From: Minisyncoccota bacterium
Lineage (GTDB): Bacteria; Patescibacteriota; Minisyncoccia; JAHIHE01; JAGLIN01
Direction: 5' to 3'
Assembly (NCBI GenBank): GCA_028691985.1
Contig: JAQUYG010000005.1
Span: forward strand, 1 to 58,539
DNA: 58,539 nucleotides
Below are positions 859-19,349 of this stretch, piece after piece. Position 1 is the first letter of the stretch. Each line of letters opens with the position of its first letter. The notes under the pieces are model-generated. The model was not told the origin of the DNA. It ran no database searches and saw nothing but the letters and a program-made list of their open reading frames with translations. The position numbers were made by a program, and so were the translations under genes.

Positions 859-2106
859 ATGAATATTTTCGAAAAAATTACAAAAAAGAAAAACAAAAAT
901 AAGTATATTCTGTCTCTAGATTTAGGCACAAAGTTTGTAAAAGCCCTTGTGTCATATGTCGATTATGAAGAAGATAAGGTGGTGAATCTGGGTGTAGGCA
1001 AGTCGGGACAAAAGAATGGTAATGTCGTCGGTGGAAGGATTTTGAATGTTGAGGGGGTTATAGAATCTTGTAGGATTGCAATCGAAGAGGCTTCGAAGAT
1101 GGCGGACTATCTTCCTAATGAAGCGATTATAGGTTTTTCAGGCAACACTGTGAGGATCAGCACTAATTCTTTTGAAATTCAACGGGAAAATCCTGATAAA
1201 AAAATCGAACCCGCAGAGCTTAAGAAAATAATAAGGAGCGCCTATTCACGGGCGATGGATGTCATAGACTCTGAGCTGAGTTTTCGGGAAAAACAAGTCG
1301 GTGTGAATCTTATAAGCGCGGATGTCGCTGATTTCAATATAGACGGTTATCGGATCATCAATCCATTGAATTTTAAAGGGCACAAGATAAAAATTAGTAC
1401 CTCTAGCTCTTTTGTACTTTCCTCTGATTTCGAAATGATAAATAAAATAGCGGAGGGGCTTAACCTTCGGTTAGTAAAAATAGCCTATGGACCGTATGCA
1501 GTCTTGAAAGCTGTAGGGGGGCAGGATTCTTTTAACTTCAATGCGGTTATGATAGATGTGGGCGGCAATATCACTGATGTGGTTGTAGTTAAAAACGGAA
1601 ATATTGAAAAGGCTGATATGTTCGTTTTGGGAGGAAATATTTTTACAAAAAGGATTGCTAATCGTTTGAAAGTCTCGGAGGCGAAGGCAGAAGAAATAAA
1701 AATAAACTTTTCCAAGAAAAAACTCGACGATAAATCCGCTCAGACTGTCGAGGATATTTTTGTCGAAGACATCGATTTGTGGCGTTCCGGGGTTGAACTG
1801 GTTTTGGAAGAATATTCTAAAGAATCCCTTTCTCCTTCTCTTATTCTTTTCTATGGCGGCGGGAGCCAGCTTCCCGGTTTGGCATCTTCTTTGAATGAAC
1901 TTTCAAAATCTCCTATCTCTTTTTTCGGGAAAATAAAACTGGATTTTCTAAATATGGGATATATCTCTGATAATGAGGACCGGACCAAGAAACTGGATAA
2001 TTTTCAGGATATCACTATTCTCGCTCTCTCGCATATGATTTCAGACTCAATCAATGCAGAAGATACGCCTAATGTTTTTTTGGAAGAAATATTTTTTAAT
2101 AAATAA
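859..2106 (+). CDS. FtsA/PilM-like actin-fold ATPase
   Basis: A 415-aa protein of the FtsA/PilM branch of the actin superfamily. The phosphate-1 loop is LSLDLGTKF at about residues 18-26, the phosphate-2 motif MIDVGGNITDVV is near 231, and the adenosine motif FYGGGSQLPGL is near 330. Family members bind ATP and either tether FtsZ to the membrane (FtsA) or form the cytoplasmic ring of type IV pilus assembly (PilM). I cannot separate these two roles from sequence alone. No FtsZ, PilN or PilO gene is next to it; the neighbour instead encodes a membrane-anchored protein with a J-like exterior domain. The ATG at 859 is preferred over an upstream TTG-like start inside the preceding gene. Confidence 0.8.
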   Translation: MNIFEKITKKKNKNKYILSLDLGTKFVKALVSYVDYEEDKVVNLGVGKSGQKNGNVVGGRILNVEGVIESCRIAIEEASKMADYLPNEAIIGFSGNTVRISTNSFEIQRENPDKKIEPAELKKIIRSAYSRAMDVIDSELSFREKQVGVNLISADVADFNIDGYRIINPLNFKGHKIKISTSSSFVLSSDFEMINKIAEGLNLRLVKIAYGPYAVLKAVGGQDSFNFNAVMIDVGGNITDVVVVKNGNIEKADMFVLGGNIFTKRIANRLKVSEAKAEEIKINFSKKKLDDKSAQTVEDIFVEDIDLWRSGVELVLEEYSKESLSPSLILFYGGGSQLPGLASSLNELSKSPISFFGKIKLDFLNMGYISDNEDRTKKLDNFQDITILALSHMISDSINAEDTPNVFLEEIFFNK

Positions 2107-16367: not shown

Positions 16368-17480
16368 ATGACAATCTCAACCATAATTATTTTTCTTCTG
16401 ATCTTGGGCGTGATCGTTTTTATTCACGAGCTAGGACATTTTGTCACGGCGAAATTTTTTGATGTAAAAGTTGAGGAATTCGGGCTCGGCTTTCCCCCTA
16501 AAATTTTCGGGAAGAAAAAGGGGGAGACTGAATATACTTTGAACTGGATTCCCCTTGGGGGGTTCGTTAAAATCGCGGGTGAAGACGGAGAAAACCGTGA
16601 TGATCCTAGAAGTTTTGGCGCCAAACCGGTTTGGCAGAGAGCGCTCATTCTTTCTGCCGGAGTCATTATGAACTTTTTTTTGGCGGCGGCACTTTTCAGT
16701 TTCGTTTTATTTGCCAAATTTCCTCAAGACATTTCCGGCGTTGCTGATAATAATCTTCCGGCGAATATCGATGAAATCTATGTGCAGGTCAATAGCGTGG
16801 TTGCTGGTAGTCCTGCAGAAGAGGCGGGATTGGAAGCGACGGACCGCATTTTGAAAATAGGGGATATCGAGGTTGATGATACGGATGATTTTGAAAGCTA
16901 TACTAAATTACATCCAGACAGTGTTGCGGCTATCACCATTCAAAGAGGCAGCGAAACGATTGATAAGGAAATATTTGTCAGGGGTAATCCTCCTGAAGGA
17001 CAGGGGGCCACTGGAATCTCTATCTCAAGATTGGCAGTAGTGCAATATTCTGCGTTGGGGGCGATCAGGGAAGGCTTTGTCTATACTGCAGATATGGCAT
17101 ATTTGATCATTCTTTCTTTTGTTGCCCTTTTTAGGGAACTTCTTTATACAGGGGGGACTTCGATGGAAGTGTCCGGTCCGGTCGGGATGGTTTCGATGAC
17201 ACAGCAGGCGGCACAGTTGGGAGTTTTGGTGCTCATAAATTTTACCGCGCTTATCAGTATCAATCTGGCGATTCTTAATATCCTTCCGCTTCCCGCACTT
17301 GATGGAGGAAGAATCGTGTTCTTGATTGCGGAAAAAATCAAGGGAAGACCGATCAGTCAGGAATTCGAAGCAAAAATCCATAACGCAGGTTTTATGCTCT
17401 TGATGTTATTGATGGTGATTGTCACTTTCAAAGACATCGCGCGTTTGGGGATTTGGGAGCGGATTGTGGGAATGTTTTAA
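16368..17480 (+). CDS. rseP: Site-2 zinc metalloprotease RseP
   Basis: A 370-aa intramembrane M50 protease. The zinc motif HELGH is at residues 20-24 inside the first membrane helix, a PDZ domain lies at about 125-205 (VVAGSPAEEAGLEATDRIL), and the second active-site motif LPLPALDGGRI is near 305. It cleaves membrane-bound regulators or leftover signal peptides in the bilayer. The order frr-rseP is common in bacteria. The start is AAATAAATG without a Shine-Dalgarno. Confidence 0.95.
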   Translation: MTISTIIIFLLILGVIVFIHELGHFVTAKFFDVKVEEFGLGFPPKIFGKKKGETEYTLNWIPLGGFVKIAGEDGENRDDPRSFGAKPVWQRALILSAGVIMNFFLAAALFSFVLFAKFPQDISGVADNNLPANIDEIYVQVNSVVAGSPAEEAGLEATDRILKIGDIEVDDTDDFESYTKLHPDSVAAITIQRGSETIDKEIFVRGNPPEGQGATGISISRLAVVQYSALGAIREGFVYTADMAYLIILSFVALFRELLYTGGTSMEVSGPVGMVSMTQQAAQLGVLVLINFTALISINLAILNILPLPALDGGRIVFLIAEKIKGRPISQEFEAKIHNAGFMLLMLLMVIVTFKDIARLGIWERIVGMF

Positions 17481-17507
17481 AGTTCTTTGTAAATTATATC
17501 GGTGCGC

Positions 17508-17544
17508 GGAGTAGCAGACTTCAGTCTGCGCTGCTATCCAACGC
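17508..17544. repeat. Dispersed palindromic repeat, copy 1
   Basis: The segment starts GGAGTAGCAGACTTCAG and contains the perfect hairpin GCAGAC-TTCA-GTCTGC. A nearly identical 37-base unit occurs at 30920-30956. It lies in the 389-base gap between rseP and the minus-strand peptide gene; apart from repeats I see nothing else in 17481-17808. Confidence 0.75.
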
Positions 17545-17663
17545 AAGAAAAAGAAAAAGTATGCGACTCTCTCTATTTTGGAGCATAACTTGTGTGTGAT
17601 AATCCTCGCTAATTCCGTTGTCACAAAACACTGATAGCTGGACATACAAAATAAGACTTTTTC

Positions 17664-17787
17664 ATTCCGAGCTTGTCGAGGAATCGCTTCATTACGATTA
17701 TTTATACTATTCTATTCTTATAGCAACTTTTATATCTAGTGAAGAGATCCTTCGGCTCCGCTCTCACTCCGTTCAGGACGACAGATG
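17664..17787. repeat. Dispersed ATTCC-type repeat modules
   Basis: ATTCCGAGCTTGTCGAGGAA (17664-17683) and a second module with GATCCTTCGGCTCCGCTC and GGACGACAGATG (17746-17787) belong to a family also seen at 19499-19526 and 24011-24244. They look like degenerate inverted repeats and lie only between genes. Confidence 0.6.
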
Positions 17788-17808
17788 AAAAAAACAGAAA
17801 ATTGAGAC

Positions 17809-17859
17809 AAAAAAGAAAGGCCGTTTTTCAAATCCGTTTTTTAGGATTAATTAGCCTTT
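17809..17859 (-). terminator. Intrinsic terminator of the 43-aa peptide gene
   Basis: Read on the minus strand, AAAGGC (17854-17859) pairs with GCCTTT (17816-17821), enclosing an inner stem AATCC/GGATT, and is followed by CTTTTTT (forward A-run 17809-17814). It lies just after the peptide gene's stop. Confidence 0.6.
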
Positions 17860-17869
17860 TTGGAGCGGT

Positions 17870-18001
17870 TTATTTCACTATTACCACTCCAGTTACTTTT
17901 TTCATGTGAGCTTCTTTTATTTCCGGAAGCTCCTTTCTCTCTTCTCTTGGAGTGGTGGTCATTTCTACTCCCTCTTTTTTTCTTATCTCTTTAGTTGCCA
18001 C
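17870..18001 (-). CDS. 43-aa hydrophilic peptide of unknown function
   Basis: A short GTG-initiated frame encoding 43 residues that begin MATKEIRKKEG and end KKVTGVVIVK. It is highly charged up to a short hydrophobic tail and has no signal peptide or membrane segment. The call rests on its expression signals rather than on homology: a Shine-Dalgarno GGGAGGTGA (18007-18015) spaced 5 bases from the GTG, a near-consensus promoter (18057-18085), and a terminator after the stop. Such a clear Shine-Dalgarno is unusual in this window. I do not recognise the peptide; a leader, a small regulatory protein or a modified-peptide precursor are all possible, but none is shown. Confidence 0.6.
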   Translation of the reverse strand: MATKEIRKKEGVEMTTTPREERKELPEIKEAHMKKVTGVVIVK

Positions 18002-18056
18002 TTTTCTCACCTCCCTTTATTTTTTTTATTTTTTCTTTGAGAAAAGTTAACTTTGA

Positions 18057-18085
18057 ACTATACTATATAAATCAAAATTTGTCAA
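18057..18085 (-). promoter_or_regulatory. Near-consensus promoter for the 43-aa peptide gene
   Basis: On the minus strand, TTGACA (18080-18085) and TATAGT (18057-18062) are separated by exactly 17 bases. Transcription would start near 18050 and run away from proS, leaving an AT-rich leader of about 50 bases before the GTG. Confidence 0.75.
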
Positions 18086-18101: not shown

Positions 18102-19349
18102 ATGAAACAATCTAAATTATTCGGAAAAACAATATATGAAGTGCCTAAGGACGAGGTGAGTAAGAATGCTCAGCTTCTTATTCGTGGCGGTTTTGTTGAT
18201 AAACTGATGGCGGGCGTCTATTATTATTTGCCACTTGGAAAACGGGTGCTTTCGAAGATTGAAAACATTGTCCGTGAAGAAATGAACGCAATCGGTGGGC
18301 AGGAGATTTTGATGAGCGCGCTTCAGAAAAAAGAAGACTGGCAGACGACCGGTCGTTGGGATATCGATGTGATGATGAAAGTCCAGACAAATCTGGACAA
18401 GGAATTTGGGTTGGGGTGGACGCACGAAGAAGCAGTGACGCCGCTTGCTAAAAAATATGTTAGGTCATACAAAGATTTTCCGTTTTCACTATATCAGATT
18501 CAGACGAAGTTCCGCAACGAGAAGCGAGCCAAGTCAGGAATCTTGCGTGGACGCGAATTTGTGATGAAAGATTTATATTCATTCCACACCAGCGAAGAAA
18601 GCTTGGATGAATTTTACTTGCAAGCTAAAGACGCATATTCCAAAGTTTTCAAAAGAGTCGGGCTCGGCGATAAGACATATTTCACTTATGCTTCAGGTGG
18701 TGATTTCAGCAAATACTCACATGAGTTTCAGACCTTGACCGATGCCGGAGAAGATAATATCCATATCTGCGATAAATGCGGCATCGCCATTAATGAGGAA
18801 GTAGTTGAGGAGCTAGATGGAAAATGTCCCGAGTGCGGCAGTAGCGATTTACATGTCGAAAAAGCAGTAGAGGTCGGAAATATTTTCAAGCTCAAAAATC
18901 GTTTTACTGATCCTTTCAATTTTAAATTTTTGGATAGTGATGGAAAAGAAAAGACGGTTATGATGGGCTGTTATGGAATCGGACCAAGTCGTTTGATGGG
19001 AACAGTAGTAGAAATTCTAAGTGATGAAAAGGGGGTTGTTTGGCCGAAAGAAATTGCACCTTATCAAATTCATTTAGTGTCGCTTGGGAATAGCGATGAA
19101 GTGAAAAACAAAGCCGAAGAAATTTATAACGATTTGCAGCAGCAGAAGGTTGAAGTTTTGTTTGATGACCGTGGTGAGTCAGCGGGTGTAAAACTCAAAG
19201 ATTCTGACTTGATCGGCATCCCTCTCCGTGTCGTAGTGAGTGCTAAGACATTAGGGCAGGACGGAGTCGAAATCAAGAAGCGAAGTGAGGAGGGCTTTGA
19301 AATCATAAAGCTCGGAGATTTGCAGCATTATCTAAAAAACTTTATCTAA
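18102..19349 (+). CDS. proS: Prolyl-tRNA synthetase, short form without editing insert
   Basis: A 415-aa class II synthetase that charges tRNA-Pro. Motif 2 is in KFRNEKRAKSGILRGREF, motif 3 is in MMGCYGIGPSRLMG, and the C-terminal anticodon-binding domain starts near residue 320 (PYQIHLVSLG). Typical bacterial ProRS has about 570 residues with a YbaK-like editing domain between motifs 2 and 3. Here that place holds only a short treble-clef-like segment with Cys223, Cys226, Cys242 and Cys245, which probably binds zinc. Misacylated Ala-tRNA-Pro would therefore need a separate editing protein. It is monocistronic and is followed by a strong terminator. Confidence 0.96.
   Translation: MKQSKLFGKTIYEVPKDEVSKNAQLLIRGGFVDKLMAGVYYYLPLGKRVLSKIENIVREEMNAIGGQEILMSALQKKEDWQTTGRWDIDVMMKVQTNLDKEFGLGWTHEEAVTPLAKKYVRSYKDFPFSLYQIQTKFRNEKRAKSGILRGREFVMKDLYSFHTSEESLDEFYLQAKDAYSKVFKRVGLGDKTYFTYASGGDFSKYSHEFQTLTDAGEDNIHICDKCGIAINEEVVEELDGKCPECGSSDLHVEKAVEVGNIFKLKNRFTDPFNFKFLDSDGKEKTVMMGCYGIGPSRLMGTVVEILSDEKGVVWPKEIAPYQIHLVSLGNSDEVKNKAEEIYNDLQQQKVEVLFDDRGESAGVKLKDSDLIGIPLRVVVSAKTLGQDGVEIKKRSEEGFEIIKLGDLQHYLKNFI

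Follow-up and report, generated by a model that had tools for sequence, protein, structure and literature searches.

The 43-codon open reading frame at positions 18001–17870 on the minus strand appears to be a true gene for a small protein, transcribed independently of its neighbors, and to be this species' occupant of a slot beside proS that is shared by its family. A probability of about 70% is given to this reading. The sequence analysed, termed the window, is a 58,539 nt stretch of a Minisyncoccota genome. The sequence-only reading of the window had proposed a complete stand-alone unit for one small protein, and comparison with related genomes bears this out in part: the slot recurs, its promoter is mostly kept and the open reading frames of relatives are under selection, but the 43-aa frame itself is unconserved.

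The small gene is situated between two plus-strand genes and is divergent from the second of these. The first (positions 16368–17480) encodes an rseP-type M50 protease with a PDZ domain (Pfam Peptidase_M50 and PDZ). The second, proS (positions 18102–19349), encodes a 415 aa class II (prolyl) tRNA synthetase (Pfam tRNA-synt_2b and HGTP_anticodon). Much of the rest of the rseP–proS gap at 17481–17810 consists of dispersed repeats, with two pieces (approximately 17507–17556 and 17660–17785) that are also present at about 20 further genomic locations.

Expression signals and reading frame of the small gene

The predicted promoter is of the sigma-70 type. It is on the minus strand and consists of a −35 element, TTGACA, at 18085–18080 and a −10 element, TATAGT, at 18062–18057, separated by a 17 nt spacer. 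It matches the consensus at 11 of 12 positions, and the near-consensus promoter of 17-base spacing that had been described before is therefore present. Judged from the sequence, the gene has a promoter of its own at a position common to the relatives. On the plus strand, a candidate proS promoter, TTGAGA-16-TATACT, is found at 18037–18064 (10 of 12 matches) and overlaps the promoter of the small gene. A perfect 12 bp palindrome, AAAGTTAACTTT, at 18043–18054 coincides with the expected transcript start and is operator-like. It may be due to chance, as there are 17 such palindromes within the window.

The Shine-Dalgarno (SD) sequence, GGGAGGTGA, at 18015–18007 (minus strand) has an 8 nt exact match to the anti-SD, and the spacing from the end of GGAGG to the GTG at 18001 is 8 nt. 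The 3′ end of the host 16S rRNA, ...GGATCACCTCCTTT, carries an intact anti-SD. The predicted duplex between the two is −17.8 kcal/mol, the strongest tested. The median for 65 window genes is −1.1 kcal/mol and the best is −10.2 kcal/mol, which upholds the description of this SD as strong; it also exceeds the SD of every slot open reading frame in the relatives. The accompanying statement that core genes avoid SD sequences holds within the window, where 4 of 67 open reading frames have an anti-SD match of at least 5 nt at the chosen start, but other strong SDs exist in the genome; these SD statistics are based on the window and on pattern searches.

The reading frame has a GTG start and a TAA stop, as had been reported, and its product is (V/M)ATKEIRKKEGVEMTTTPREERKELPEIKEAHMKKVTGVVIVK. 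The codon-usage score is 0.376 bits/codon. Real gene pieces have a 5–95% range of 0.016–0.434 bits/codon, which includes this value, and noncoding frames have a 95th percentile of 0.088 bits/codon, which it exceeds. A ribosome-binding site and a coding-like frame are thus found together. A perfect 9 bp inverted repeat, ACCACTCCA/TGGAGTGGT, is located within the small open reading frame at 17883–17891 and 17948–17956 and perhaps forms a hairpin in the mRNA.

The leader of the predicted transcript can fold into a 10 bp hairpin. The 5′ arm, ACTTTTCTCA, is at 18047–18038, near the expected transcript start, and the 3′ arm, TGAGAAAAGT, at 18009–18000, overlaps the tail of the SD as well as the G and T that begin the start codon (both minus strand). 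The SD is therefore on the loop side of the hairpin, with the arm extending into the start codon. The folding energy is −9.3 kcal/mol (z = −2.84).

Two other in-frame starts are present. A GTG upstream at 18010 gives a 46 aa product and sits within the SD. An ATG at 17962, which is 39 nt downstream of GTG 18001, gives a 30 aa product with an SD duplex of −9.5 kcal/mol. The ATG could be the true start, because two of the three bases of the GTG are taken up by the leader stem. In addition, a G-rich element is found 41 nt from the −10 element in the window as compared with 40 nt for the hairpin element of the relatives, and this correspondence is consistent with a start at ATG 17962.

The transcript would end at a terminator-like hairpin, AAAGGC...GCCTTT, followed by CTTTTTTGT (17859–17807, minus strand), which is weak and has a long loop. 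Folding places the hairpin at 17859–17816, at about −10 kcal/mol; its inner part is long, and CTTTTTT comes after it. The terminator region has a z of −1.4, and a simple terminator scan at the small gene found nothing. The terminator claimed earlier corresponds to this hairpin with its T-run and is marginal. The stop codon of the small gene is 10 nt ahead of the hairpin.

Each of these elements alone can arise by chance in AT-rich DNA, the marginal terminator in particular, and the unit might be no more than sequences that happen to resemble a promoter, an SD and a terminator. This is highly improbable. Promoter sites with 11 or more matches number seven distinct cases in the whole window (58.5 kb on both strands, i.e. 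117 kb of strand). Among 600 random 18-mers none equals the SD, the best reaching −12.8 kcal/mol, and the position and direction of the slot are kept in 13 genomes.

No homologue of the 43 aa peptide was found in 54 relatives, 384 genomes of the class, GTDB genome contigs, IMG/VR viral contigs, phages or plasmids. The 48-codon open frame around the peptide likewise gave no homologue in these sets. Conservation of the frame in relatives, which had been put forward as a homology test, is therefore not seen. The comparison covers a host genus with no second species in the genome collection, so truly close relatives are absent from it. The 43-aa frame is accordingly judged to be coding from its signals, from its codon usage and by comparison with what the slot holds in other genomes. 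A link of the peptide to one group of slot products (group C, see below) was considered and set aside; the alignment with the G009 product (z = 3.8) spans about 15 residues, which is too short to count.

The slot beside proS in related genomes

The proS gene was found in 18 of 18 relatives. The family sample consists of 14 genomes, with proS found in 13, and all 13 have a small divergent open reading frame (43–136 aa) beside it. These lie on the strand opposite to proS and begin 51–119 nt from its ATG, and a hairpin and T-run follow the stop codon in 13 of 13. The same arrangement is present in G016, which belongs to another family of the same order. Inspection of more distant loci revealed no conserved small divergent gene beside proS. 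Genomes of genus g5 have a gene other than rseP upstream and still carry the small gene beside proS; thus the small gene stays with proS.

G015, from another family of the order, has a 123 aa frame divergent from proS (L017, positions 1068–1439, minus strand). This frame displays a signal-peptide-like start, a TTGACA-16-TATAAT promoter, a AGGGGGTGAT SD and short internal repeats (W..ET.HSNF).

The TTGA of the −35 element is invariant in the 14-genome alignment, and the complete TTGACA is invariant in the 8-genome long-leader set. Automatic promoter choice gave no convincing site in G002 and G004, where the alignment shows TTGACG and TTGATT at the shared −35 position. A divergent promoter is therefore claimed for most genomes and not for all. 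Five slot open reading frames (G002, G004, G006, G008 and G016) are without an SD.

In most genomes the −35 box is 1–16 nt from the proS ATG. This closeness, the overlap with the candidate proS promoter and the persistence of the small gene beside proS in g5 would fit a role in cis-regulation, in which transcription from the small gene's promoter would reduce that of proS, or the region common to both would be repressed by the small protein. However, the products are too variable to have one common DNA target, and promoter competition alone leaves selection on the open reading frames unexplained. Such regulation is considered unlikely as the explanation of the unit.

Leader sequences are shared as well. 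A 13 bp hairpin is found at the expected transcript 5′ end in five relatives' genomes, and the 3′ arm in the window has a position analogous to an arm of this hairpin. In the alignment of the 13 bp hairpin 98.5% of cells are paired, with wobble changes and one double change; covariation in these few sequences is not significant when compared with shuffles (101/500). The SD-bearing motif TCCTGGAGGGGAT or a near copy is present in the leaders of six genomes. Of 18 genomes searched, four contain the exact motif, each as a single copy located at the slot. A covariance model of the leader gives strong matches at the slot locus only. Outside of the family it gives eight weak matches (E = 0.008–0.1) in other genomes of the class; the match in G012 (E = 0.089) did not resemble the slot locus and was taken as chance. 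The Rfam search gave nothing above chance, the best match having an E-value of 0.89 and 17.5 bits against a gathering threshold of 56.

Where slot open reading frames can be compared, dN/dS is 0.34 (G001/G005), 0.30 (G006/G016) and 0.42 (G003/G009), these being simple Nei-Gojobori counts with the synonymous side near saturation in the latter two pairs. By this measure the open reading frames of the relatives are coding and under purifying selection. For the window frame this provides backing by analogy only.

A leader that is structured and, together with the promoter, better conserved than most of the open reading frames, combined with a window frame that has no homologues, might indicate a unit whose promoter, leader hairpin and terminator produce a functional RNA, the frame being incidental. 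The dN/dS values of the relatives argue against an RNA-only unit, as do their 66–136 aa open reading frames, which fill the unit. The window frame moreover combines gene-like codon usage with the strongest SD tested, and there is no Rfam match. An RNA function of this type is quite unlikely.

At 43 aa, the window frame is the shortest occupant of the slot (the others are 66–136 aa), and the nearest relative, G002, has a 117 aa frame in this position. The frame may thus be viewed as a truncated leftover from the decay of a normal 70–130 aa occupant. This is very unlikely, however, given an SD stronger than in any relative, codon usage that is gene-like, a stop codon placed just ahead of the terminator hairpin, and a sequence that contains no recognizable fragment of any relative's product.

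Turnover of slot products and comparison with known systems

The slot products fall into group A (G001 and G005), group B (G006, G008 and G016) and group C (G003 and G009, perhaps also G013 and G007); the remaining products are single cases. Host relatedness does not predict the type of product. G009 and G011 are of the same genus and have proS proteins of 91% aa identity, and G007 and G013 have 97% identity over the 153 proS residues available, yet in both pairs the open reading frames have no meaningful BLAST similarity. Conversely, G006 and G016 are from different families and show 72% identity in proS, but their slot products are 54% identical. In G001 and G009 the leader and promoter have 84% DNA identity as compared with 49% for the open reading frames, which is the level of unrelated open reading frames here.

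The open reading frames beneath the leader are thus either exchanged or diverging extremely fast. Exchange is favored by the sharing of group B across families; the group B product was not found outside of the slot in 384 genomes of the class. On the other hand, alignment of products across groups gives a weak signal (mean z of 0.86, as compared with 0.03 with reversed partners), and a similar order of helices and strands is seen across products when read by eye. These two properties favor fast divergence for part of the set, and the alignments suggest that some product groups may be very diverged homologues and not replacements.

Searches of Pfam, NCBIfam and PHROGs with the slot products gave only scattered sub-threshold matches. 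The group A product (L029) has a predicted helix-strand-helix-strand-helix-strand fold (pLDDT of 70, from a single sequence), and comparison of this fold with the PDB gave no match better than E = 0.13. Products of groups A and C were not found in viral contigs.

A moron is defined as a promoter-gene-terminator unit. Moron loci of phages and prophages are expressed independently of their neighbors, in many cases from a promoter of their own, differ between close relatives and are often highly expressed (PMC7067206). The slot resembles these in that it appears to form a self-contained unit of promoter, gene and terminator-like hairpin whose content differs from one close relative to another. 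It differs in being chromosomal and fixed beside proS with no adjacent phage genes, and in having a leader that persists while the product changes. Identity with a moron locus was rejected, as the small gene lies between rseP and proS and has no phage, plasmid or viral-contig homologue.

The nearest class is that of orphan small-protein genes. Like these, the slot products are short and lineage-specific, and nothing in Pfam, NCBIfam or PHROGs matches them convincingly. The orphan genes described so far mostly come from loci that have no relation to one another, whereas a single slot, conserved and equipped with expression signals of its own, carries an orphan here that depends on the species. 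What is unusual is that the slot is conserved and the cargo changes. No earlier description of such genes in Patescibacteria was found among the titles and abstracts of an open-access library.

A tentative interpretation, to which less than even odds are given, is that the proS slot is a fixed cassette (promoter, 5′ hairpin leader, strong SD and terminator) in which small, highly expressed proteins are repeatedly swapped between species of the family. The slot would then correspond to a moron site that is chromosomal and takes one gene at a time, and the 43 aa gene would be one of its cargoes. Changing cargo under kept signals is commonly seen among accessory genes that take part in biological conflict or in interactions specific to a species. 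A role of this type for the slot products is suggested by turnover alone and is rather doubtful.

Gene finders easily miss the small genes of CPR/Patescibacteria, and only a few of these organisms are culturable. A slot defined by its neighbor and by expression signals offers a way to find small genes that does not depend on protein homology, and its 14 natural variants can serve to study the function of a small protein that changes fast. If exchange is the correct explanation, the slot also illustrates how small genes may originate or replace one another where a promoter and leader are already in place.

Proposed expression of the small gene

The arrangement of the leader is similar to that of the ompA/aprE-type mRNA leaders, in which the 5′ end forms, or is close to, a hairpin and a strong ribosome-binding site comes next. 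Bacterial mRNAs are stabilized by such 5′-proximal hairpins and ribosome-binding sites (PMC3997798). The likeness is one of arrangement. A difference is that the stem in the window touches the start codon, so that gating of initiation would be as possible as stabilization.

In the proposed mechanism, RNA polymerase would produce a short mRNA of about 240 nt, and the 5′ hairpin would either protect this mRNA or gate initiation. The strong SD would give a high level of translation, and the product would be an abundant, soluble small protein. The slot open reading frame would be exchanged or evolve fast while the expression signals are kept, since products are unrelated or unrecognizably diverged even in congeneric species.

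The SD sequence of the small gene also precedes two pilin genes in the same genome, a T4SS/TrbC-type pilin gene (L131, positions 1501–1870) and an N-methyl (type IV) pilin gene (L135, positions 1501–1891). Pilins are usually abundant, and the SD probably gives high translation of these as well. High expression of the small gene is hinted at by the shared SD, and abundant surface proteins may perhaps be marked by strong SDs in this mostly SD-free genome.
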